A stretch of DNA of 64,000 nucleotides from contig JAMPCJ010000001.1 in the NCBI GenBank assembly GCA_023666275.1, positions 62,001 through 126,000 on the forward strand, in the 5' to 3' direction. Below, one piece after another: positions 8,637 to 58,594 of the stretch; the stretch's first letter is position 1; the number at the start of each line of letters is the position of its first letter. Source of the stretch: Treponema brennaborense (GTDB lineage Bacteria > Spirochaetota > Spirochaetia > Treponematales > Treponemataceae). The notes beneath the pieces are model-generated. The model was not told the origin of the DNA, searched no databases, and saw only the letters and a list, made by a program, of their open reading frames with translations. A program made the translations under genes and the position numbers.

Positions 8637-8645
8637 CCCCCCCCC
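8637..8645. repeat. intergenic C9 homopolymer
   Basis: Nine consecutive C on the plus strand between the antitoxin 3' end and the valS promoter. It is not inside any gene or promoter element I can support. It is listed because four other G/C tracts of the same length occur in functionally sensitive positions in this window. Confidence 0.6.
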
Positions 8646-9512: not shown

Positions 9513-10841
9513 TTATTCGACCGTTACGGTTGTGTAGTATGCGCCGCCCGCTTGTTTTTTTACGGCAGCCGCGGCTTCCGCGTAACTTTGCAGCGCATCT
9601 TTGTACGGATAGTTAATTGTCCAGGGAGGCGTAGGTGTATTATGATACGTCGCAAAATCTAGACCGCTGTTTTTTACATCGCTATTTGAAATCGTAATGT
9701 TATTGCCCGTCTGATAAAATTTCGAAAGCGTCGCCGCGCCTGCTTCGCTGCTATCCTCGTACTGCACTATGTTCTGTTTAAAAGATCCGAAGTAATTGTT
9801 CTCGACAATATACTGCGAACCGATGCCGGGACCGAGGCTGTAGCCGCCGTTACCCAAAACTCCGATGTCGTCATAAACATTGTTGTAAATATGCAGCTGG
9901 CAGCCGCGGCTTCGCGGCATTCGCTGCGTTGCGCCGTGGTAATAATTATGGTGAAACGTAATTTGCCGATCTTCCGGATTAACGTAGTCATCGCCCGGCG
10001 CGAGAAGCGTAACTTTGTCATGATTCGTGAATTCGCACCAGGAAACCGTAACGTTTTTGGCGGCTTTCATATCAAGCGATCCGTCGTGATTAAGGTTTCT
10101 GATCAAATCGCTGCATGTTCCGTCGGTAAACGTGCAGTGATCGATCCAAATATTCGTCGGGATATAATCGTACGAACCGGTCGTGCTGCCTTTTGTTGCT
10201 TCGAGCACGAGCGCATCCGCGCTTGCCTTGCTGGAAGAATCATATTTTGTATCTTTTTCCGTGGATCCGTGCGCGTCCCAAAAGGTTACGTTTTGTATGA
10301 TGATATTTTGTCCGGAAGACGCGTCTTTCGCATAAATTTGCAGCCCGCCGAAAGCGATTTTCGCGTTGTTTTTCCCGATAATCGCTTTGTTCGAGCCGAT
10401 TTTACAAACAATGTCGTCGTGCTTTCGTGTGTGATCCGAATTGAATTCATCGTAATAAGTGTGATCGGTATCGGAAATTTTTCCGTCGCTCAAATCGACT
10501 GTTCCGTCCAGAATAATAATCGCAGGCGCAGTATTGACGGACGAACTCGATACGCTGCCGCTTGCTATCGCGTTGGTAAAGGCTTCGCGTTTAGCGGCAG
10601 CCGTCGGATATTTTTCATCAGTAATTTCTATTATATTATCCGTATTCGGATATTTCATGCCGACCGTATCCGCCCAGCCGAACGTTGTTACCGCGGCGCC
10701 GCGTTTTATAACAAGCTCGCCGCTGACAGGAACCGGTTGCGGGGCGACAGTCTGCGGATCGTCGGCAGGACAGCCCGCAAGGATCAGGAATACCCCCCCC
10801 CACGCGCACAGGGAGCACAAAATTTTAAACATTGATTTCAT
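9513..10841 (-). CDS. pectate lyase, family PL1, surface lipoprotein
   Basis: Cleaves polygalacturonate by beta-elimination. The 442-residue product has a lipoprotein signal ending at Cys24 (LILAGC), a low-complexity linker, and a parallel beta-helix with PL1 hallmarks: NIWIDHCTF, a Ca-binding DGSLDMKAAKNVTVSW followed by HDKVTLL, and HHNYYHGATQRMPRSR with the catalytic Arg. A G9 run (10793-10801) falls in codons 13-17 of the signal peptide (A-W-G-G-V), so gain or loss of one base would abolish the protein. GAGGACAAAT precedes the ATG, and a strong promoter lies at 10876-10903. The role is probably pectin use or adhesion to plant or host glycans. Confidence 0.92.
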   Translation of the reverse strand: MKSMFKILCSLCAWGGVFLILAGCPADDPQTVAPQPVPVSGELVIKRGAAVTTFGWADTVGMKYPNTDNIIEITDEKYPTAAAKREAFTNAIASGSVSSSSVNTAPAIIILDGTVDLSDGKISDTDHTYYDEFNSDHTRKHDDIVCKIGSNKAIIGKNNAKIAFGGLQIYAKDASSGQNIIIQNVTFWDAHGSTEKDTKYDSSSKASADALVLEATKGSTTGSYDYIPTNIWIDHCTFTDGTCSDLIRNLNHDGSLDMKAAKNVTVSWCEFTNHDKVTLLAPGDDYVNPEDRQITFHHNYYHGATQRMPRSRGCQLHIYNNVYDDIGVLGNGGYSLGPGIGSQYIVENNYFGSFKQNIVQYEDSSEAGAATLSKFYQTGNNITISNSDVKNSGLDFATYHNTPTPPWTINYPYKDALQSYAEAAAAVKKQAGGAYYTTVTVE

Positions 10842-35654: not shown

Positions 35655-36053
35655 CTACCCCCAAATTTTGTCAAATTCCTCTTCAGAAATCGCGGTCGGG
35701 GTTGCCGAGATTTTTTTATAATTTTTGGAATCGCCGTCATCGCTTGTAAGTATCAATGTATCGCCCGCAAGGCTGTATTCAACAGCGCTGTCATTAGCTG
35801 TTATTGTATTTCCGGATACGGAATACGCAAAGCCTTCTTTGCTGTAATAGTATTTTCCCTCCGATATTACAACAAAGTACAACATATCACCGCTGAAATA
35901 GTAACCTTCGTTTTCACCGTCAGCGGGCAGCCATAATCCCTGCAAAGCACTGCTGCCGCTGTTATCGTCGTCATTGTCGCTGCACGCAATAAAACTCATC
36001 GCGAAAATCAGCGAAGCCGTCAAAACGGCTGTCAGTTTCAAAACCTTTTTCAT
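35655..36053 (-). CDS. small lipoprotein of unknown function
   Basis: A 132-residue product with a lipoprotein signal ending at Cys24 (SFIACSDNDDDN). The mature part (SALQGLWLPADG, YYFSGDMLYFVV, GNTITANDSAVEYSLAGDTLILTS) has the alternating Gly/aromatic strands of small lipocalin-like beta barrels seen in Treponema lipoproteins. TTAGGAGG precedes the ATG. Its promoter has a nine-base homopolymer in the spacer (36080-36107), so expression is probably variable between cells. It has its own terminator, hence a single-gene unit. Confidence 0.8.
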   Translation of the reverse strand: MKKVLKLTAVLTASLIFAMSFIACSDNDDDNSGSSALQGLWLPADGENEGYYFSGDMLYFVVISEGKYYYSKEGFAYSVSGNTITANDSAVEYSLAGDTLILTSDDGDSKNYKKISATPTAISEEEFDKIWG

Positions 36054-36079: not shown

Positions 36080-36107
36080 GTTATACAACGGGGGGGGGTA
36101 ATGTCAA
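36080..36107 (-). promoter_or_regulatory. promoter with C9 tract in the -35/-10 spacer
   Basis: On the complement: consensus TTGACA (36107-36102), a 16-base spacer containing nine C (36098-36090), and TATAAC (36085-36080). Change of the tract by one base alters the spacer from 16 to 15 or 17, which is expected to alter promoter strength. The rest of the 435-base gap up to trpS (36108-36488) shows no gene that I can support. Confidence 0.75.
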
Positions 36108-46912: not shown

Positions 46913-47200
46913 CTATTTCCCCCCCCCTCTGTAAACTGCAACTTCTTCCATGAATCTTACGAAGCCGCTCTCATCGACTTTTTCGATACGGCGGATTCTT
47001 TTTGTGCATTTCTTTTTAGTGTCGTTTTCCAATTTTTTTAAAAGCCTTTGATGTCTCTCTTCACAACTTTCCTCATGGCGGTCGATATGATAGTTCACGC
47101 TGTCAGTAGCATCGTGTATCGCATCAATTATCAAATACGTATTCCATGTATTAGCATCGATAATCCCAAAAAGCCGCAAAATACAAAGAATAAAAAACAT
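46913..47200 (-). CDS. small membrane-anchored protein with G9 tract at its 3' end
   Basis: A 95-residue product of unknown function: N-terminal hydrophobic segment (MFFILCILRLFGIID), then a charged, helical, coiled-coil-like body (HEESCEERHQRLLKKLEND). AAGGAGAAACAG precedes the ATG. Near the 3' end a G9 run (46919-46927 on the complement) encodes the last glycines and is followed at once by a stop. In the frame reached by one extra G, or by loss of two, coding continues EIDRERAFGTQKKAL ... GLDKAV to a stop at 46809. The tract may thus switch between a short and a 36-residue-longer C-terminus. Confidence 0.6.
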   Translation of the reverse strand: MFFILCILRLFGIIDANTWNTYLIIDAIHDATDSVNYHIDRHEESCEERHQRLLKKLENDTKKKCTKRIRRIEKVDESGFVRFMEEVAVYRGGGK

Positions 47201-48118: not shown

Positions 48119-48378
48119 GTTTTAATCCCTTAAGTCAGGTCTGTGTTTTTAATCTTCAAGAATATAATTTTTGTGAAAAATCTGAAAGCTGAGTTTTAAT
48201 CCCTTAAGTCAGGTCTGTGTTTTTAATGCGCGTGATAACGGGGAATTGTCCGGCGGGGCGTTGTTTGGTTTTAATCCCTTAAGTCAGGTCTGTGTTTTTA
48301 ATGTTTCCGGCGGTATTGCAAAAGAAATTATCGTTACGGAATAGTTTTAATCCCTTAAGTCAGGTCTGTGTTTTTAAT
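48119..48378 (-). CRISPR. CRISPR array, four 35-bp repeats and three spacers
   Basis: Four identical 35-bp repeats at 48119-48153, 48193-48227, 48268-48302 and 48344-48378; spacers of 39, 40 and 41 bp. On the plus strand the repeat starts GTTTTAATCCC and ends GTTTTTAAT. Read on the minus strand it ends GGGATTAAAAC, giving an AUUAAAAC 5' handle of the AUUGAAAC kind used by types I and III, so transcription is most likely on the minus strand, as for cas. With the leader at 48379-48629, the newest spacer would be the one nearest 48343. No spacer match was noticed within the window. Confidence 0.97.
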
Positions 48379-48629: not shown

Positions 48630-48926
48630 TCACAAAATAACAAAATCTTCATCCGCAATTGTATCTGCCGATTCTGTTTTTTTGCCGAAAATCTGCCGTT
48701 TCTGAAAATCACGTTCGCAAATTTCAAAAAACAAAATAAAATCTTTTTCAATATCCATCAATTTTTCAAGCCGCAACCTAAGATGTCCGATTGTTTCATC
48801 ACTTGCAGTAGTTTCAAATACGGATTTCTGCACCCGCCGCCCATAGCTTTCCACGCATTTCGAAATTTTCGCAAGCCGCTTTACATCACGGATATCATAA
48901 ACAATGAGCCAATGTTTTTCTGCCAT
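48630..48926 (-). CDS. cas2: CRISPR adaptation protein Cas2 (second copy)
   Basis: A 98-residue Cas2: the ferredoxin-like start WLIVYDIRDVKRLAKISKCVESYGRRVQ with the metal-binding Asp in VYDI, then FETTASDETIGHLRLRLEKL. It clearly differs from the Cas2 encoded immediately upstream. GAGGA precedes the ATG. It is the last cas gene before the array. Cas2 dimers bridge Cas1 dimers during spacer integration. Confidence 0.9.
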   Translation of the reverse strand: MAEKHWLIVYDIRDVKRLAKISKCVESYGRRVQKSVFETTASDETIGHLRLRLEKLMDIEKDFILFFEICERDFQKRQIFGKKTESADTIADEDFVIL

Positions 48927-48936
48927 TTACGCGTCC

Positions 48937-49212
48937 TCATAAAATTTCAAAGGTTTTAGGAATAAAAATATCTCCGTTTCCCAGCGCCATGCTTTTTGAA
49001 GCGCAGTCCTGACATAGCGGATAAATTCTCAGGCTGTCCTCTTTTTTGTTAATAACTTCCAGCAATGCGGATTTTATTTCCTCAAGCTGCATCTTCTCCA
49101 TCTCGCACTCAAAAAACGAAAACTGAATGCGGATTCCGAAGTTTTCCAATATTTTCGCAGCTTTATTGAGACGTTTTGGATTTGAAATATCGTAGCTTAT
49201 AAAATAAATCAT
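48937..49212 (-). CDS. cas2: CRISPR adaptation protein Cas2 (first copy)
   Basis: A 91-residue Cas2: FISYDISNPKRLNKAAKILENFGIRIQFSFFECEM with the conserved Asp. It starts in the ATGA overlap with the cas1 stop, so it is coupled to cas1. The C-terminal half carries a Cys pair (CQDCASK). A second, divergent cas2 follows ten bases later. Confidence 0.92.
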   Translation of the reverse strand: MIYFISYDISNPKRLNKAAKILENFGIRIQFSFFECEMEKMQLEEIKSALLEVINKKEDSLRIYPLCQDCASKSMALGNGDIFIPKTFEIL

Positions 49213-50318
49213 TTGAAATAATACGATTTGTATTCGGTTTCTTCATTATTGATTACGCGTTTATAGCATAGAACTTGCTGATAGATAATTTTTGCATACG
49301 AAATTTTTTGTAAAGCCGGCGCGTATAAAATTACCGAATTCATCTTTGCTTCAAACGCCGTTATCACTTTTTTGAGTCCGGTATTTGTAAGAAGAATTCC
49401 ACAGCAGCCGGAATAATTTTCTTCATCGTTCTGACTTTCGGAAAACAAATCCGCATCGCCCTTTCCCTGTTCCGAATCAAGCGGAAAATCATCGCTTTCT
49501 GCCGAGAATTCTTTTTTTTCAAAATCGTTCGGCTTCAAAATTCCCAAATTAAACATGGAACAGCAAACCGAATCGCAAATTGGCGAACGGAATTCTTCCA
49601 TCAAATCAAAAACCAAAGCGGATTTTCCGTAATTCACCGCGTGAAGATTTCCGCAGCAGCAGTCAAGCCCCTGTGCTTCTATCGCGCTTTCCACGCGGTA
49701 CATCAAAAGCGTATACAAAAAACTCAAGACGGCATTTACATTCGTCCGCGGCGGATTTTTGCTCCGAGTTTTGAATTCCGCCCATTCATCCTGAAGATTG
49801 AATTTGAATACTTCAAAATATTTTCTCGCCGCAATTCCTTCATATCCGCGCAGCTTGTCAATATCATCGGCTTTTTCGGCATTGGAAAGCGTATTCTTTA
49901 CCGCAGCTATCGCATCTTCGACCGCCGTATTTTCTCCGGAATTTTTGCGCTTGATTCTCTGCATAAAACTGATTTCATTGCGGATTTTTCCCAGCACAAT
50001 GCTTCTTGCAATTGCAAGAGATTTCTGCGGATTGTCTAAAATCCGAAACTGCTTTTGCCGCAAAAAAATATTTTTTCCGTCGCCGAAAGTAAGTTTGCCG
50101 TTAAAACGTCCGTTTGCGGAAAGAAATGTTGTTCCGATTTTATATTTCGTAAGAAGACGCAAGGCATCAGCGCTAATCGAAACTTTTCCGATAAGAACCA
50201 AATGCTCGGTTTTAAACGGAAAAAGAACCGTATCTGTTCCGTCCGGCCGAGAAAAAATAATTGTTTCGTTTTTTTTCGAAAGCTTTCCGTAATCCGACAA
50301 AATATAAATTTCCGCCAT
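49209..50318 (-). CDS. cas1: CRISPR integrase Cas1
   Basis: Inserts new spacers at the leader end. The catalytic triad is visible: E160 in RGYEGIAARKYF, H226 in CCGNLHAVNYGK and E241/E242 in FDLMEEFRSP. 369 residues, longer than most Cas1. An acidic insert at about 264-302 (FPLDSEQGKGDADLFSE) lies in the C-terminal helical domain, just after the active site. Integrity of adaptation genes contrasts with the broken interference genes. Confidence 0.95.
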   Translation of the reverse strand: MAEIYILSDYGKLSKKNETIIFSRPDGTDTVLFPFKTEHLVLIGKVSISADALRLLTKYKIGTTFLSANGRFNGKLTFGDGKNIFLRQKQFRILDNPQKSLAIARSIVLGKIRNEISFMQRIKRKNSGENTAVEDAIAAVKNTLSNAEKADDIDKLRGYEGIAARKYFEVFKFNLQDEWAEFKTRSKNPPRTNVNAVLSFLYTLLMYRVESAIEAQGLDCCCGNLHAVNYGKSALVFDLMEEFRSPICDSVCCSMFNLGILKPNDFEKKEFSAESDDFPLDSEQGKGDADLFSESQNDEENYSGCCGILLTNTGLKKVITAFEAKMNSVILYAPALQKISYAKIIYQQVLCYKRVINNEETEYKSYYFK

Positions 50319-50336: not shown

Positions 50337-50726
50337 TCAGGTAAAATATTTATATGACTTAAAACATTCATGTTCGAAAATGTATTCACGGTAAACGGTT
50401 TCTCCGCTGCGCCTTTCTTTTGCGATACGGCGGGAAGTTGCGTAAAGCGGAATAAGACCTGCTTTCAAAGCATAATCCGCAAGCGTAAAAGTCGCCCCGA
50501 ATTCCCCTTGAATTATAAAAAGATCGCCCGTGACTGCATTGTTTTTAAGCCATAAAACAACAGATTCGATTATCTCATTATTTGGTTTTTCCGGAGGAAT
50601 TTGCGACCAGAGTTTTGCAAGATTTTCATCGGGATAAATAATTTGCGCGGAATTGAATTTTTTTTCAAGCTCGTCAATCTGATTTTGAGTAAGCGTATGA
50701 TTTAAAAGACAAAATGTTTTCGGCAT
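50337..50726 (-). CDS. csx20: Csx20-like CRISPR protein, predicted ring nuclease
   Basis: A 129-residue protein resembling Csx20: LLNHTLTQNQIDELEK, IYPDENLAKLWSQIPPE, a Gly/Phe core GDLFIIQGEFGATFTLADYAL and GLIPLYATSRR, ending HECFKSYKYF. Csx20 is a CARF-related family found in type III loci and predicted to degrade cyclic oligoadenylate. It sits between card1 and cas1, so an off-switch for Card1 activation is the natural reading. The assignment is by recalled motif, not alignment. Confidence 0.72.
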   Translation of the reverse strand: MPKTFCLLNHTLTQNQIDELEKKFNSAQIIYPDENLAKLWSQIPPEKPNNEIIESVVLWLKNNAVTGDLFIIQGEFGATFTLADYALKAGLIPLYATSRRIAKERRSGETVYREYIFEHECFKSYKYFT

Positions 50727-50745: not shown

Positions 50746-51873
50746 TTAAATTTCTCTTCCGTCTTTTATATCGATTCCGAATTCTTTTGCACGATTCAAA
50801 GGCGTTTCTGTATCGATAATGCTTTTTGTATACAGATGCTGCTTTACGGACAACCCGAATTTCGATTTGATTATTGCCTGCAATTTATATAAAGCATCAT
50901 TCAAAACTTTATTTCCCTCTTTGCCGCCGGCGTCAACAAAACTTTTGCATTCAATTACATGAAGTTTGTTGTCTTTATCCAAATAAATTACATCAAGTTC
51001 GTTTTTATCGTTTCCTTTCTGAATTGCAACATTTAAGGCAGCATTTTTTTTATCCACATTTTGATATTCATTGCATATTTTTTGATAAACATATTCTTCA
51101 AACCAGCCGCCGGTAATATATCGAATATGTTTTTCTTTTATTTCGGCAGCATTAAAACCGAATTCCTGTAAAAGCTTTATCATATTCTCTTTAGTCGCTT
51201 GCGGATGACCGATAGCGGAAAATTTCGATTCGTCGATTTGCGTAAAATCAAGGAACTCCTTGTTTTTACAACGATTCTTAAAATAAGCGTTGTTTTGAAG
51301 TGCGTTCATCGCTGCTATGCTTTCACGATTTTTTTTGATATATAAATCATAGACAGATTTATTGAAATCCCGGTCTTTTATGCATTCGTTTGAAAACTTA
51401 TAAGAAATTCCGTGAGCATCTAAGTATTCTTGCAAAGAAAGAAGTTCAACCATATCGTATTTTTCATAATCGGGATAAAGCTTCTGAAGTTCTTTTCCTA
51501 TCGGCTGGTAATAAATTTCCGCATTCTGCCTGCGTTTGAAAAAATCGAAAACAGCCAATGACATCAGCTTTGTTCCGCCGGTAATATTTACAATTTCACT
51601 TTTATATTTATTTTTTTCAAAATGTTCGGCAAGAATTCTATTGGTTTTCTCCATATCGTTCCCGTCAGTCTGGATTACTTCCCACTCAACAAAAGAATCA
51701 AGACATGCTAATGCTTTTTTTATATGCGCTGATTTATCCTTTTGTTCCATTTCTTTTGTCGAAATAAGAAGAATCTTTATGGATTTTTTATTCCGATTAA
51801 AATACCATTTTATAAATTGAACATTCGGAATTGTTTGTTCACTTACCAAATTTACAAGAATTATGTCTTTCAT
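50746..51873 (-). CDS. card1: Card1/Can2-type CARF nuclease
   Basis: Cyclic-oligoadenylate-activated nuclease of type III CRISPR. N-terminal CARF domain (LVNLVSEQTIPNVQFIKWYF; NITGGTKLMSLAVFDFF) and C-terminal PD-(D/E)XK nuclease with D294 in ELDVIYLD and E308-C-K310 in VIECKSF. From memory S11, E308 and K310 coincide with the cA4-contact and catalytic residues reported for T. succinifaciens Card1, and the length (375) matches. The start at 51873 is chosen for GGAGAAG; the longer frame adds residues with no support. It appears to be the only ancillary effector; no Csm6 is present. Confidence 0.9.
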   Translation of the reverse strand: MKDIILVNLVSEQTIPNVQFIKWYFNRNKKSIKILLISTKEMEQKDKSAHIKKALACLDSFVEWEVIQTDGNDMEKTNRILAEHFEKNKYKSEIVNITGGTKLMSLAVFDFFKRRQNAEIYYQPIGKELQKLYPDYEKYDMVELLSLQEYLDAHGISYKFSNECIKDRDFNKSVYDLYIKKNRESIAAMNALQNNAYFKNRCKNKEFLDFTQIDESKFSAIGHPQATKENMIKLLQEFGFNAAEIKEKHIRYITGGWFEEYVYQKICNEYQNVDKKNAALNVAIQKGNDKNELDVIYLDKDNKLHVIECKSFVDAGGKEGNKVLNDALYKLQAIIKSKFGLSVKQHLYTKSIIDTETPLNRAKEFGIDIKDGREI

Positions 51874-51886
51874 TTTCTTCTCCGAA

Positions 51887-53074
51887 TTATTCCGCTTCCA
51901 CCGTGCATTTGCACCAGCCCATGGGAATATACTGCCCATCATCATTCAAAACCGAGCGGGTTTTTCCGTAAGGAGTTTTCGGATTTCTGAAATCATTGCC
52001 GAAAGTAACAAATTCGACTTGCGACCAGCGTCCGAGACGGATTATGAATTGATTGCCAGTATCGGCATCAGGAACGATAATTTTATCTATTATTTTTTTC
52101 AAAGAATCGATTTTCTCGACATGTTCAACGGCATTTCGATAAAACGTTTTATATTCTTCGTCAAACTGCTTTTTAAAAAAGAAATTGCATGAATCAATAA
52201 TGTCCCGAATATTTATTTTCTTGTTGATATGAAATTTTTCTCCGAAATCCGCATTCTGCAAATCCGTATTTATCCGCAGTGAAAATTCTGCGGAATATTT
52301 GCCTCCCAAAAGACTACAGGGAATTGCTTCGGCAATAATCTGCATGCCTGTTTCCGTAAGTTCCTTTGTTAACCTATCAATTTTTATATTTTTAATACAG
52401 CCGACAATTTGAGCTTTTGAAGAAAATTTACAGTCGGTAAATTCCAAACATCTGAACGGATCTTTTTGCGCATAATTGCCTTCCTGTGTTTTATCTATGT
52501 GCAAAGCCATATTTTGAATTGTTTTTTCATACGTGCCTTTCTTTTTGAAATCGTTCTGTTTTTCTTTTTCAGCCCGATTTTTAAGAGCATCGTAATGATC
52601 ATCATCCATTTCATGAAGAAGAATATTATTCAATACAGCGGTGCGAACAGCTCCCTTTACGGAAGAGCCCGGAATATACGGCATATTTCCATTATGCAGC
52701 ATCTGATCAACTTCCCGTGCATTCGAAAACAAACCATCGCTGCTTTTATCTGAAAAAAGCCTTTCGAATTCTTTTGTTACCGCTGCATCATAATCAATCG
52801 CTTTCCCGTTATCTATCCAAAAATGCTCCCGAAAAAAACGGCACATACGGTCTACATTGTTTTGATCAGAAACTTCCTGTAATTTTTGCTTCAGAGATTT
52901 ATCTTCGGAGTCCAAAACAGCGCGTATTATTTTATCCGAATTAAATTTAACATACTTTTTAGAGCCGGAGTTATTAGGAGCTGCAAGCGTATAATCAAGC
53001 GGCAGGAGTTTTTCTCCCGTTCCGATATGCACGGCTGTCAACGGCTCGATTTTTATTTTATGTATTTCTTTCAT
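51887..53074 (-). CDS. csm5: type III-A RAMP protein Csm5
   Basis: Caps the 3' end of the Csm complex and helps crRNA maturation. RAMP features: IKIEPLTAVHIGTGEKL at the N-terminus and the Gly-rich YIPGSSVKGAVRTAVLNNIL. 395 residues. The ATG overlaps the csm4 stop by four bases. The reading frame is intact. C-terminal PMGWCKCTVE is typical of Csm5. Confidence 0.92.
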   Translation of the reverse strand: MKEIHKIKIEPLTAVHIGTGEKLLPLDYTLAAPNNSGSKKYVKFNSDKIIRAVLDSEDKSLKQKLQEVSDQNNVDRMCRFFREHFWIDNGKAIDYDAAVTKEFERLFSDKSSDGLFSNAREVDQMLHNGNMPYIPGSSVKGAVRTAVLNNILLHEMDDDHYDALKNRAEKEKQNDFKKKGTYEKTIQNMALHIDKTQEGNYAQKDPFRCLEFTDCKFSSKAQIVGCIKNIKIDRLTKELTETGMQIIAEAIPCSLLGGKYSAEFSLRINTDLQNADFGEKFHINKKINIRDIIDSCNFFFKKQFDEEYKTFYRNAVEHVEKIDSLKKIIDKIIVPDADTGNQFIIRLGRWSQVEFVTFGNDFRNPKTPYGKTRSVLNDDGQYIPMGWCKCTVEAE

Positions 53075-53959
53075 GCATCATCTCCTATCGGCACAACAGG
53101 CGCAAATCCAGATTGGCATATCCGTTCGTCCGAGTGAACATTTTCAATCAGCGTTCCGATAAACTTCAACGGCTTTTCCGATTCGAAAACAGCGCCTTCG
53201 TCAAAAAGAACAACGGTCTTTTTGTAAGGACTCATAAAGGCTGCAAATGCACCGCCGATTTTTCCTGTACGAACAAAAATATCGGCACGCAGGGAATCAT
53301 CTTTTATTTCCGAAAAATCTGTTATAAAAGGAGCGAGCGCAACATATTTTTTCGAAGAAATTTTTGTTTCCGCAGGAACAACATTCTCAACGGCAATTCT
53401 TCCTTTTCCCGTTGAAGAGTCTGCACCGTAACCGTTTTCAAAAGCCCATTCCAAAAGCTGCTTTATTCTTTCCGCCGGATATAACGACAAAACATATAAA
53501 TCAAAATCCCGATTATTCGCCCCAAGCTCTTCCACCGAGAACAGGCTTCCGTCTTCGACAGTGTTTGTAAAACGATTTATGGAATTGTGCATTGTCTGCA
53601 TCCGCTTAAATCCGAATGTGCTGCTTTTGCTTTCGCTGTGAGATGTATTCGAAATATATTCTTCGGCGGAAGTAAATTTTTCTTTTTTCTTTTTCTTAAT
53701 CTGCGAATATTCTTCCGCCGACAATTTCGCTTTTCTGTTTTCGTGTTTCGGGTACGGTTTGCAGATTGTTCCTTTCGGAAACGCGGATGAAACTATCAAG
53801 GCAGGTTCGATTTTTTTTTTCTTCGTCGAGAAATCGTGCAGCAGCTTCATCTCCTTCATGATTCGCGATTCCCCATACAATATGCCCCCAAATCGTATCG
53901 CCTTTCAGAGGTGTTGCAAGAGCAGACTGCAATTGTATTGATGCTTTGTAAAGTTGCAT
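53071..53959 (-). pseudogene. csm4: csm4, interrupted by a frameshift at an A10 run
   Basis: Csm4 binds the crRNA 5' handle next to Cas10. The N-terminal frame begins at 53959 (MQLYKASIQLQSALATPLKG, TIWGHIVWG) and reaches an A10 run at 53820-53811 (D-E-E-K-K); there it shifts away and stops at 53696. The rest of Csm4 (IEPALIVSSAFPKG ... GYGADSSTGKGRIAVEN ... GFAPVVPIG) continues in another frame to 53071. A tract of nine A would restore one frame of about 295 residues. It could be a true mutation, a slippage switch, transcriptional slippage that yields some full-length protein, or an assembly error at a homopolymer. Confidence 0.85.
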
Positions 53960-53967
53960 ACATGCCT

Positions 53968-54642
53968 CTATTTTACAAGTCTTACGGGATTATTGTTTTC
54001 ATCAATTAAATCTTTAAATTCTATCTGCCCGTTTCCGCGGCTTCCGCCGCCTCCGAGATAATCGTTCTGCAAAACCTTTAAAGATTCAAGCACAACTTCT
54101 TTAAAAAGCTTTTCATCGGTTTCGCCGTTGTCGCCGGTATCGATTACGCGGTAAGAAATTTCAAAATCGAATTCCACATCCGGAACGACGCGTTCAATCG
54201 GGCGAGGATTAGCTACGGCTGTAATTCTGTTCAAGGCGTTTTCATTTTTTTCTTCAACAATCACGCTTCCGTTTCTGAATTTTTCTTTCCAGTGTTCGGT
54301 CAAAACAGCATCGCGGACAATGAGTCTTGTAGGACCTCTGTCTTTCGCTTCTTCCGATTTTGTATTCGCGCTTCCGAAGACACGGCAGATTTTGCATTCT
54401 GGTTTTCCGCAGGAACACGGCTCTCCGCCGGATTCTTTTACTTTATCGAATTTCCATTCCATCAAAGAACGCATTTTGCCCTTTATCGATGATCCGGGAA
54501 TATAAGGTTCTTGTGTAAGAGGATTTCTGATAATCGGATTATCCATTCCGCCTATTTCCACTTTATCGTTTCCGGCGCCGATGTGCAGGCCTGTCTTTAC
54601 AACAATTTTGCCGCTTATTTTTTTCGTTCCTATTTGTTTCAT
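53968..54642 (-). CDS. csm3: type III-A backbone RAMP and target ribonuclease Csm3
   Basis: Forms the filament of the Csm complex and cuts target RNA at six-base intervals. The catalytic Asp is D34 in VEIGGMDNPIIRNP; the G-loop IPGSSIKGKMRSLMEWK and a CSCGKPECKICRVFG zinc-type Cys cluster are present, as is NDYLGGGGSRGNGQIEF. 224 residues, frame intact. Confidence 0.96.
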   Translation of the reverse strand: MKQIGTKKISGKIVVKTGLHIGAGNDKVEIGGMDNPIIRNPLTQEPYIPGSSIKGKMRSLMEWKFDKVKESGGEPCSCGKPECKICRVFGSANTKSEEAKDRGPTRLIVRDAVLTEHWKEKFRNGSVIVEEKNENALNRITAVANPRPIERVVPDVEFDFEISYRVIDTGDNGETDEKLFKEVVLESLKVLQNDYLGGGGSRGNGQIEFKDLIDENNNPVRLVK

Positions 54643-54665: not shown

Positions 54666-55199
54666 TTAATTATTATCAGGTTTGTTTTCGTAATAGAAAC
54701 CGTATACAGCTTCAAACAACGCTGAAAACACTCGATAATCTTTTTGCGTTTTAATTAAATCAATTCCCTCGGATATAAAGCTTATTAAATTGTCATAGCA
54801 TTTTTCAGTTCCCGTTTCGTGTTTGGCTTTGGCATTTTTTTTCGTCCTGGCGGCTGTGTAACGCACCTTTGACTTTATCATTTTTATATACGGCAATTGT
54901 TCGTCCCACTTTTCGGAATCGTTTTCGCTTAACAGTCGATCATATCGTTTTACTTCATCAAACAGCCGCCTCAATTGAGTTGAAGAAACTCCTTCATTTC
55001 CTCCTTTAGGAGATGATACAGATAATGATTTCGCAACATCTTCCGCATATTCATTGAATAAATCCGCTCTGACTTTACCGGCGGCATCATAAAAATTCCC
55101 GATTTTTTTATATTGACTCACTTCGACTGCCGGTCGAGCTACTGGTACTACGCGCGGCTGTTGTGGTCGGTCATTGAATCTCCTGTTTTCATCATACAT
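54666..55199 (-). CDS. csm2: type III-A small subunit Csm2
   Basis: A 177-residue helical protein matching Csm2: SSTQLRRLFDEVKRYDR, LPYIKMIKSKVRYTAAR and the final helix around VFSALFEAVYGFYY. The N-terminal 30 residues (Pro/Arg/Val-rich) extend beyond the common core. It forms the belly of the complex along the crRNA-target duplex. Located between cas10 and csm3 as usual. Confidence 0.9.
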   Translation of the reverse strand: MYDENRRFNDRPQQPRVVPVARPAVEVSQYKKIGNFYDAAGKVRADLFNEYAEDVAKSLSVSSPKGGNEGVSSTQLRRLFDEVKRYDRLLSENDSEKWDEQLPYIKMIKSKVRYTAARTKKNAKAKHETGTEKCYDNLISFISEGIDLIKTQKDYRVFSALFEAVYGFYYENKPDNN

Positions 55200-55217: not shown

Positions 55218-57584
55218 TTATCTGTTCATATACAATGCATAACTTACGGCTATGCGTGATTTAATCATTTCCTGCGGAGTGCTTCCAAACGCCGTCAATT
55301 TTTTTTTCAAAGCTTCATCCTTTACATTTCTTGCAAGAACATAAATCAAATTGCTTTTCCAAATTCTGTCTTTTGTGTTTACAAGCTCGCTTACATCTGC
55401 AACGTTATCTTTGCTGCCTAAAATTTTTTCAGCGCGATTTGCAAAATCGATAAATTTATAAATAACACCGGTTGAAAGTTTTTCTTCTTTTAAGCATTGA
55501 GCAAAAAATTTCCCATTTTCAAGACATTTTTCATAATCTGCCCAAGAAACTGTTGTTCCGAAAATCGTAACAGCGTTTTTCCCGCTATAATCTTTTGAAA
55601 GCTCAAGATTTCTTTCCGCTTCGTCCGCAATGTTTCCAACCGGCAGTTTTGCATTCGCAAGCGCAATTCCTCCGCTTATCGTTACCGACGGATTATTGTT
55701 TGTGAATTTCCGCAATTCTTTTTGAAAATCAACTGCAAACTGCATTACGGATTCCCATGTACCGAGAATGCACAAATCATCGCCGCCGGAAAAAACCGTA
55801 TAAATTTTTTCTTTATAAAAATCATCGAATTGATCTTTTTTATTGTTTACAAACCATGAATAAAAAGCCGAAAAGAAATAATGAAGCAGATGACTTAAAT
55901 CGGCATATCTGGAAAAAGACATTCGCTCCCTCAAAGACTGATTGAAAACAAGTCCGAGATTATCAATATCGGCTTTGAACATTGCAAGCCTTTCATTTCC
56001 CTGAGATTTCTTCGCGATATCTTCAAAAGTTAAAAGTTCTTCATCATCGTTTTTCGGCGCGGTATACGGAAGAGTAATCAACGGGAATCCCGGCTTATAA
56101 TCATTCACGGAATAATAAAAATCCACATCCTCATCCCATTCATAAAGTTTTATCATATCGCCGAAAGGCAGCAGTTTATCGGATTTTAATTCGACCTTTG
56201 CAGACTTTACAAGTTTACGCCCGATTTCAATCAGTTTTTCGCAGGACTTACACTGTATCTCATCTGTATTTTCCGAATTCCTTGCGGCGAAAAGTCCGCA
56301 TGTCGGGCACTCGCCGTATTTTTGCAATTGTTCATACTGACTTTCCAGAACTGCGCCGTATTTTTTCAGAACTTTCTGCATTTTTTTTGATTTTGCTATA
56401 TCGCCGTCATCGTCGATTTTATTTATGAGTGCACTTACATTGCTTTGCCGCAAGTCATCGCTGCTTGCTTCTGTTCCGCTGCTGACAATAAAAGTCAGCT
56501 TGCCGGCAAATTCTTTTAAAAAATACGCTTCAATTTCAAGCCGCAATTGCTCAAGACATTTTTTTGATTTTTCCGTATTCGGCAGAAGAATTATGAACTT
56601 TCCGCCTGCGGATGTCATTATATTTGCATAAGTTACGCCGAACTGCTTTGTAATATATTGCGAAATAATTTCACTTAAAGCCCAGAGCTGAAAACTTTTT
56701 GCACGCAGCAGCTTTGCGTTGTCGGCAGAAGTCTTTAAATCAAAAATATAATTTTGAATTCCGGAAATATCTCCGTTTACAAACAAAAATTTCTTATCAT
56801 CGTTTTCTTTTAACGCATTTTCGTTTTCAGTATTTTTTTCTTTGTGATATTCATACAAAGCCGCTGCAAAAGCGGCTGTTGTTTTTGCATGCTGATATAA
56901 ACTTATATCTGCATCGGAATTAGTCGCAGAAGGAATACACCACCAGTACCGTTCCAGCAAAGAATTCAGCGCAAGCAAAAATTTATCATAACCCAAGTTT
57001 TTTAGTTTTTGAAAATCTCTTACGAAATCCTTCCAAAGATTTTTATATTCCTCTTTCGAAGTTCTGCTGCTTTCTACGGGCAAAACGGAATCTTCATCCA
57101 ATGCGGACATTTTGCAGAAAGCTTTATCGATTTTCTCGCAGTTATCAAGATGCAAAGTCGAAAGAATATGAATCATCGGTTTTTCGTAAAACTTTAATTT
57201 TTGTTTTTCCTCATCAAACTGGTTTTCGTCGCTGCATTCCGCAATTCCCAAAATATTGCATCTGTCAGAACCGCTGCTTAATCTGTCAGCATGACTTATA
57301 ATCCAATCATGATACGTTGAAGGTCTGTGATGCATCGCGGCAAGCGTTTTTATATGCTCGAAATTAACGCCGTCCGGAAGAATGTCTTTGTACTTACTTA
57401 AAAATCCTTCGGTATAAACAACATGCTGATGAGTAAAACGCCCGTCTTTTGTTGTTTTGCAATACTGACCTTCAAGGTCCTTGTTATAAAGTTCCGATAT
57501 TTCCGCGCGCTACGCAAATTTTCCGACATCATGAAGCCATGCCGCAATAATTATTTCTTCTTTTGTTATATGTACATCTGCCAT
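55218..57584 (-). pseudogene. cas10: cas10/csm1 with an in-frame TAG in the HD domain
   Basis: Cas10 is the large subunit that makes cyclic oligoadenylate and cuts ssDNA. The full frame starts at 57584 (MADVHITKEEIIIAAWLHDV) 22 bases after cas6; codon 25 (57512-57510) is TAG just after WLHDVGKFA, where Gln (CAG) would be expected. The frame then stays open for 763 codons: the rest of the HD domain, a zinc ribbon (CPTCGLF ... CKSCEKL) and the cyclase palm with GGDD near residue 598 (VFSGGDDLCIL). The next ATG, 57335 (MHHRPSTYHDW), lacks a good ribosome site. Re-initiation there would drop HD but keep the palm. Confidence 0.85.
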
Positions 57585-57605: not shown

Positions 57606-58559
57606 TTAAAAATTATTTTTTATCCAATAATCTATCTGCCCCAGCCCGAAGTTTGTGCTTTTTCCGGCGCCCGCAATTTTCGCGAGTTCTAATAAAGAAA
57701 GCTCGAAATTTGAAAATTTTCCGCTTAATTTAAAAGTTCCCACAGCGCCGCCAAGCTCCATTGCATTTTTTTGACGCGCGGAATAATGGTTTAAGTCAAT
57801 CCATCTTATTTTTCTGTCTTCAATCCGCATTGATTCCGACGCAGTGTATTTTTTCGATTTTTCTTTTTCCGAAATTTCGCCGTAAAGCGAACAGAGCGTT
57901 TTTGCGCGGCGGCAAAGGCAATTCATAAAATCCTGCGCAGTAAAATTCGTTCCGTATTTTCCGCCGAATTTGAACCGCAGCGGGGAATTCAGTTCGACAA
58001 GAAGTTCGTGCGAATTTGCTTCGCATTCATCGCTGAATCCCCACAAAGCGGGTTCTGTTTCCAAGTCGAGATGATTTTCATCCAGTAGAATATTTTTTTC
58101 GCAGGCAGTAACGCTTTCTACTTTAAATTGAGTTCGGCTTTTAAAAAGTCCGCATGTTCCCGCGCGTACAAATGCTGCGTAAATATACGGCAAAGACTCT
58201 ATCGCTTTTCCGAATAAAGTAATCGTAAAAGAATATGCACTTATCGGATTTTCGCGTTCGCGTTTTTTTACGGAGAAAGAATACGGATGACAACCTTTGT
58301 TGCGTCCGGGAAGAACAAGATTATTTTGCGGAAGAATTGTTTCGAAAATAAATGAATAGACGCATGTTTCTCTGTAAAGACATTCGGTGCAAACCGTCTT
58401 TTTTGAAATGCAGCACATCGAATGAAGATTTTTTCCGAGCACGCTGCGCAGAACGAAAAGCGGGTTTGTATCCGCAAAGCACGGGGATTCAAATCTTAAC
58501 AGAAAATGTACCGGTAAATAAAGAAGATTACCCCCCCCCGTACCATGCATCGGTTTCAT
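57606..58559 (-). CDS. cas6: CRISPR pre-crRNA endonuclease Cas6, with G9 tract near its start
   Basis: Cuts repeat RNA to give crRNAs. A 317-residue Cas6 of the Cas6/Csx RAMP type: YLPVHFLLRFESPCF, Cys-rich region CCISKKTVCTECLYRETC, GGKYGTNFTAQDF and the C-terminal Gly-rich loop KIAGAGKSTNFGLGQIDYW. A G9 run (58539-58531) occupies codons 7-10 (T-G-G-G), and no start codon exists after it, so a change of one base would abolish the protein. The ATG at 58559 has no Shine-Dalgarno; TATAAT ends six bases upstream, suggesting a leaderless mRNA for the whole cas operon. Confidence 0.85.
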   Translation of the reverse strand: MKPMHGTGGGNLLYLPVHFLLRFESPCFADTNPLFVLRSVLGKNLHSMCCISKKTVCTECLYRETCVYSFIFETILPQNNLVLPGRNKGCHPYSFSVKKRERENPISAYSFTITLFGKAIESLPYIYAAFVRAGTCGLFKSRTQFKVESVTACEKNILLDENHLDLETEPALWGFSDECEANSHELLVELNSPLRFKFGGKYGTNFTAQDFMNCLCRRAKTLCSLYGEISEKEKSKKYTASESMRIEDRKIRWIDLNHYSARQKNAMELGGAVGTFKLSGKFSNFELSLLELAKIAGAGKSTNFGLGQIDYWIKNNF

Positions 58560-58565
58560 ATTTTT

Positions 58566-58594
58566 ATTATACCGTTAAAACATCGGCATTGCAA
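58566..58594 (-). promoter_or_regulatory. cas operon promoter
   Basis: On the complement: TTGCAA (58594-58589), a 17-base spacer and TATAAT (58571-58566), then six bases and the cas6 ATG. It is the only clear promoter found for the eleven-gene operon, whose genes overlap or lie 8-24 bases apart. Confidence 0.65.

Follow-up and report, generated by a model that had tools for sequence, protein, structure and literature searches.

The closest described counterparts of the tracts considered here are the poly-G tracts of Treponema pallidum, which belong to the promoters of outer-membrane protein genes (tprE/G/J/L and tp0126). At tprL the tract ranges from 7 to 11 G, 9 being the commonest length, and transcription begins four nucleotides past it; at tp0126 the poly-G is located between the -35 and -10 elements (PMC7864442). 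Phase-variable phage defence has been described for methylation-based systems such as pglX of Streptomyces coelicolor, a methyltransferase gene (Pgl/BREX-type) in which an 8-G tract, reportedly prone to contraction and expansion, toggles phage resistance (PMC4365076). The literature searched, which consisted of open-licence papers, yielded no account of a CRISPR gene subject to phase variation. Among translational contingency loci, the Haemophilus lic genes combine a tetranucleotide repeat with start codons in different frames.

We analysed a stretch of 64,000 nucleotides from Treponema brennaborense (hereafter the window, meaning this stretch at its full length), in which a run of nine G residues (G9) lies close to the 5′ end of cas6. 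Like the T. pallidum tracts, those of T. brennaborense are long G tracts, mostly of 9 G, and its poly-C spacer tracts sit between -35 and -10 as at tp0126; the cas6 tract, unlike the promoter tracts of outer-membrane protein genes, lies in the frame of a cytoplasmic RNase. As in pglX, a G tract is found inside a phage-defence gene, but switching of pglX has been measured, whereas cas6 belongs to a damaged operon. The arrangement of upstream ATGs in different frames, with several tract lengths that would yield product, recalls Haemophilus lic, although the cas6 repeat is a homopolymer and not a tetranucleotide. In gene content and order the locus follows type III-A (Csm) systems with Card1 and Csx20, from which it departs by a stop in csm1, a frameshift in csm4, a G tract in the place of the cas6 start and two adjacent cas2 genes. 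With a probability of roughly 60%, we read G9 as a hypermutable, contingency-type tract that is incidental in the 5′ part of cas6, within a type III-A locus that had been damaged before.

The G9 tract and the start of cas6

The tract reads as C9 on the forward strand and as G9 on the reverse strand, which is the coding strand of cas6 (coordinates of all features are collected in Table 1). Its placement in codons 7-10, claimed in a preliminary description of this DNA, was confirmed from sequence and reading frame: G9 starts 20 nt after the ATG of the ORF and spans the end of codon 7 to codon 10 (MKPMHGT-GGG-NLLYLPV), and tract length sets the open frame. With nine G, as assembled, the frame runs on through the tract and cas6 is intact downstream of it, with the PADLOC Cas6 profile matched nearly in full (positions 3-293 of 296 against query residues 12-310). 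A genome search found no second cas6.

The tract is preceded by ATG codons at 58559, 58550 and 58546, none of them with a Shine-Dalgarno sequence. At G9 and G12, cas6 is read from ATG 58559/58550, and at G10 and G7 from ATG 58546; at G8 or G11 no upstream ATG enters the cas6 frame. The earlier expectation that loss of one G shuts cas6 is therefore upheld for G8, but its counterpart, that gain of one G would also abolish cas6, is contradicted, because the otherwise out-of-frame ATG 58546 joins the cas6 frame at G10 and an extra G need not abolish the gene. Since the frame depends on tract length, slippage, which we infer to occur in populations, should switch the reading frame of cas6, and a frame switch of this type is mechanistically plausible in that the kind, length and position of the tract all fit.

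A start codon behind the tract was considered and rejected. The first in-frame ATG, GTG or TTG 3′ of the tract is the GTG of codon 40 (58442), followed by the ATG of codon 48 (58418), and initiation at either would lose the conserved Cas6 core, so that no start behind the tract appears usable; on this point the preliminary description was right. The promoter-like match upstream puts the predicted transcript start at about ATG 58559, and from that position cas6 initiation is possibly leaderless or nearly leaderless.

Comparison with relatives places the homologous start of Cas6 at query residue 9-12. Homology starts at residue 11-12 in tblastn against relatives, residue 12 corresponds to profile position 3 in PADLOC, and residues 1 to ~10 are unique to the T. 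brennaborense genome. In the relatives G034 and G077 (70% identical), cas6 starts at a TTG preceded by TACGGAGAAGAATT. The codon-anchored comparison sets TACGGAGAAGAATT-TTG-AAA-CTC of G034 against TACGGGGGGGGGT-AAT-CTT of the window, the start-codon position of G034/G077 being GGT in the window, and the -10 hexamer is separated from the homologous start codon by 33 nt in the window and 32 nt in G034. From this slot comparison and spacing, the G run seems to have taken the place of the ancestral Shine-Dalgarno sequence and start, and the first ten residues of cas6 appear to be former 5′ leader. We propose that G9 arose in the ribosome-binding-site/start-codon slot of cas6 in this lineage only; loss of the ancestral start codon would have left cas6 readable only from the upstream ATGs without Shine-Dalgarno sequence, on a possibly nearly leaderless transcript, with the gene open at some tract lengths (G9/G12 and G10/G7) and shut at G8 and G11.

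The preliminary description had suggested that homologues be compared for the tract. Among 25 further cas6 loci from the order, none has it in the 5′ coding region: within 100 nt of the ORF start, 0/25 carry a G/C run of at least 6. In G034 a G8 run lies 5′ of the cas6 promoter, ~90 nt ahead of the start, and is missing in the sister G077. A further relative, G045 (L038 / L086), has a cas6 match with one in-frame TAG.

The tract might affect initiation or transcription and not the frame, through anti-Shine-Dalgarno pairing or promoter modulation. Its location exactly in the Shine-Dalgarno slot would suit such a role, as would the C/G tracts in promoter spacers elsewhere in the genome and the poly-G upstream of T. 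pallidum tpr genes, which modulates promoters (PMC7864442). Against it, there is no in-frame ATG, GTG or TTG from the tract to codon 40, so that conserved Cas6 would be lost, and no recognisable -35/-10 spacer surrounds the tract. A placement in such a spacer was looked for on either strand and rejected, there being no match at cas6. Unlike T. pallidum-type promoter control by poly-G, the cas6 tract is located 3′ of TATAAT and no usable start follows it, and we regard an effect on initiation or transcription as distinctly improbable.

Table 1. Coordinates of the features discussed (positions in the window)
Feature	Position	Strand	Details
Promoter-like TTGCAA-17-TATAAT	58566..58594	-	consensus match only, 10/12 positions
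ATG in cas6 frame at G9	58557..58559	-	without Shine-Dalgarno
Second ATG in cas6 frame at G9	58548..58550	-	without Shine-Dalgarno
ATG in cas6 frame only at G10 (MVRGGGNLLYLPV...)	58544..58546	-	
G9 tract	58531..58539	-	codons 7-10 of extended cas6 ORF
cas6 ORF, 317 aa	57606..58559	-	Pfam PF10040 9.7e-16; PADLOC Cas6 5.1e-74
csm1/cas10 frame	55218..57584	-	one in-frame TAG, codon 25; open from ATG 57335
csm2	54666..55199	-	PF03750 1.8e-13
csm3	53968..54642	-	PADLOC Csm3 2.8e-69
csm4	53071..53959	-	frameshifted at A10; N-terminal part in other frame from ATG 53959
csm5	51887..53074	-	PADLOC Csm5 1.7e-30
card1-like CARF-PDDEXK nuclease	50746..51873	-	PF23400 2e-49, PF23401, PF09002
csx20	50337..50726	-	PADLOC Csx20 1e-46
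cas1	49209..50318	-	PF01867 7.7e-79
cas2, first copy	48937..49212	-	PADLOC Cas2 3e-25
cas2, second adjacent copy	48630..48926	-	PADLOC Cas2 8.1e-23
CRISPR array	48119..48378	.	four identical 35-nt repeats, three spacers
C9 in TTGACA-16-TATAAC spacer	36090..36098	+ (read on -)	upstream of gene 35655-36053
G9 in signal peptide of pectate-lyase-like lipoprotein (MKSMFKILCSLCAWGGVFLILAGC)	10793..10801	-	currently in frame

State of the type III-A operon

The genes are ordered cas6-csm1-csm2-csm3-csm4-csm5-card1-csx20-cas1-cas2, with two adjacent cas2 and then the four-repeat array, so that cas6 does head the operon, as had been stated earlier. The locus has a GC content of 0.37-0.42 against ~0.50 in its surroundings. 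cas1, cas2 and a CRISPR array are all present. The two cas2 genes beside cas1 adjoin each other and are divergent (48630-49212). No copies of the array repeat occur in the genome beyond these four, no second array with the same repeat was found there, and a search for exact matches to the 28-nt cores of all three spacers in viral contigs returned none.

The first of two lesions lies in csm1. The gene starts at ATG 57584 with its own Shine-Dalgarno sequence, GGAG (57600-57597), which gives no specific support to the polar effects on downstream cas genes envisaged in the preliminary description. Its TAG (57510-57512) stands within HDVGKFA*RAE in the HD motif region, at a codon that is Q in the relatives L083, L084, L036, L032 and L039 (context HDVGKFAQRA), and with this stop at codon 25 an unbroken Cas10/Csm1 comprising both the HD and the palm (GGDD) domain is not encoded. 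Use of TAG as a sense codon of the general code was rejected as an explanation, since 12/92 high-scoring genes stop at TAG. The second lesion is a +1 frameshift of csm4 at A10 (T10 on the + strand, 53811-53820), a site that is in frame in G034 and G077 (L083, L084); csm2, csm3 and csm5 are open, and with csm4 split the Csm2-Csm5 backbone is not intact. Homopolymers of the assembly may contain errors, the A10 of csm4 above all, and its indel could be such an artefact; the csm1 change is a substitution and not a homopolymer indel.

Given the csm1 nonsense codon and the csm4 frameshift, the type III-A effector has most likely lost its activity in the sequenced genotype, to judge from its reading frames, and for that genotype the phase-variable CRISPR immunity originally proposed is not supported. 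With Cas10 truncated and Csm4 frameshifted, a switch at cas6 has little to switch. That the sequenced strain turns its CRISPR immunity on and off adaptively is thus possible but unlikely, as two further genes of the system already look broken. Because csm1 and csm4 are already damaged, we consider it more likely that the tract is incidental in a decaying locus, where it would be a by-product of the genome's G-tract habit, than that it is a selected switch of CRISPR immunity.

Several points stand against reading the locus as decaying. An intact, in-frame cas6 is how a contingency gene in the ON state is expected to look, and csm1 could restart at ATG 57335, the next in-frame ATG, which lies after the HD motif and from which the palm/GGDD region is open, so that the HD motif would be lost and the palm kept. 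Transcriptional slippage at A10 runs can bypass a frameshift. As both the restart and the bypass are possible, the operon may not be dead. The possible assembly error in csm4 counts on the same side.

A true phase-variable CRISPR switch, in which slippage at G9 would toggle cas6 translation and hence crRNA maturation as a form of bet-hedging, takes the csm1 and csm4 lesions as clone-specific, bypassed or assembly errors. It would fit a tract of modal length, in frame and 20 nt into an ORF that is intact downstream, in a genome with many switch-like poly-G tracts, and it has a precedent in the G tract that switches the phage-defence gene pglX of Streptomyces (PMC4365076). The cas10 nonsense codon and the csm4 frameshift argue against it, as do the lack of the tract in other cas6 genes, the ATGs ahead of the tract without Shine-Dalgarno sequence and the service of the remaining recognised tracts to surface-type proteins, and we judge such a switch unlikely. 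Very doubtful in our estimate is stochastic switching of crRNA maturation and type III-A immunity among the cells of a population, with cas6 on at G9/G10 and off at G8/G11 and with the lesions present in the sequenced clone alone or circumvented there. Should the tract slip and have an effect, CRISPR would be switchable by replication slippage with the spacers kept.

Poly-G tracts across the genome

In the window, five G9 runs account for ten overlapping G8 matches, compared with 0.49 expected from dinucleotide shuffles. Across the genome (2.35 Mb, 18 contigs), overlapping matches number 128 for G8, 57 for G9 and 12 for G10. Counted by exact length, there are 26 runs of G8, 35 of G9, 8 of G10 and 2 of G11, a distribution that peaks at 9; G9 runs exceed G8 runs, whereas a random model predicts a roughly fourfold drop per extra G. 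The G9 of cas6 is beyond chance. Contigs C4, C8 and C18 start or stop at such tracts or at most 24 bases from them. In relatives, the number of G-tract matches varies widely, from none to several hundred.

These counts bear on the view that the cas6 tract arose by chance in a genome where G runs abound, neither affecting expression nor changing much in length. It can point to the 45 tracts of at least 9 in 2.35 Mb, some of them intergenic or gene-interior without obvious role. The peak of run length at 9 and the excess over shuffles speak against it, as does the variation reported within isolates for T. pallidum tracts of this length, mostly 9 G (PMC7864442), and we hold this view to be rather improbable.

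Two enrichments were calculated with thresholds set by ourselves on sequence preselected around tracts, with nearby genes called by a simple codon-usage score and not by full annotation: an ATG with Shine-Dalgarno sequence lies within 120 nt of 9/45 tracts against 4.4 expected (P = 0.03), and 9 tracts lie within -35/-10 spacers against 0.86 expected. The enrichment at gene 5′ ends is therefore modest, and cas6 falls outside those 9 tracts because it is without a Shine-Dalgarno sequence.

Several tracts of the genome look like classical phase-variation switches, to go by their sequence context. Poly-C runs in -35/-10 spacers follow the pattern TTGACA-ctaC9gtgc-TATAAA and were found at L049:3001, L050:3001 and 5011, L051:3001 and window position 36090, and probably at L065:3001; the genes behind spacer tracts encode small beta-barrel outer-membrane-type proteins, CotH-type proteins and others. 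At least one of the nine spacer tracts, that in L059, lies inside a coding region and may be due to chance. Besides the pectate-lyase-like lipoprotein of Table 1, G tracts occur in the signal peptides of lipoproteins at L059:3001, L061:3236 and L063:3001. Paralogous BspA-type LRR lipoproteins have a leader in common that carries G9 or G10 at the same site (L053 (25-34), L077 (3001), L074, L052 and L078); one G10 copy reads through to the lipobox there, and G9 copies hit a stop in the frame of the signal peptide. The signal-peptide G tracts are likely to represent a phase-variable surface repertoire. This genome-wide set of poly-G tracts, located in the signal-peptide regions and promoter spacers of genes for surface-type proteins in a Treponema other than T. 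pallidum, is a more solid result than the tract in cas6.

Two more G9 tracts of the window (8637-8645 and 46919-46927, both on the - strand) are intergenic and without recognised role. A third recurring context, TTGACAAAAGTCGC-G10/11, is present at L055:3001, L066:3001 and L076:3001 and is possibly a promoter-associated family.
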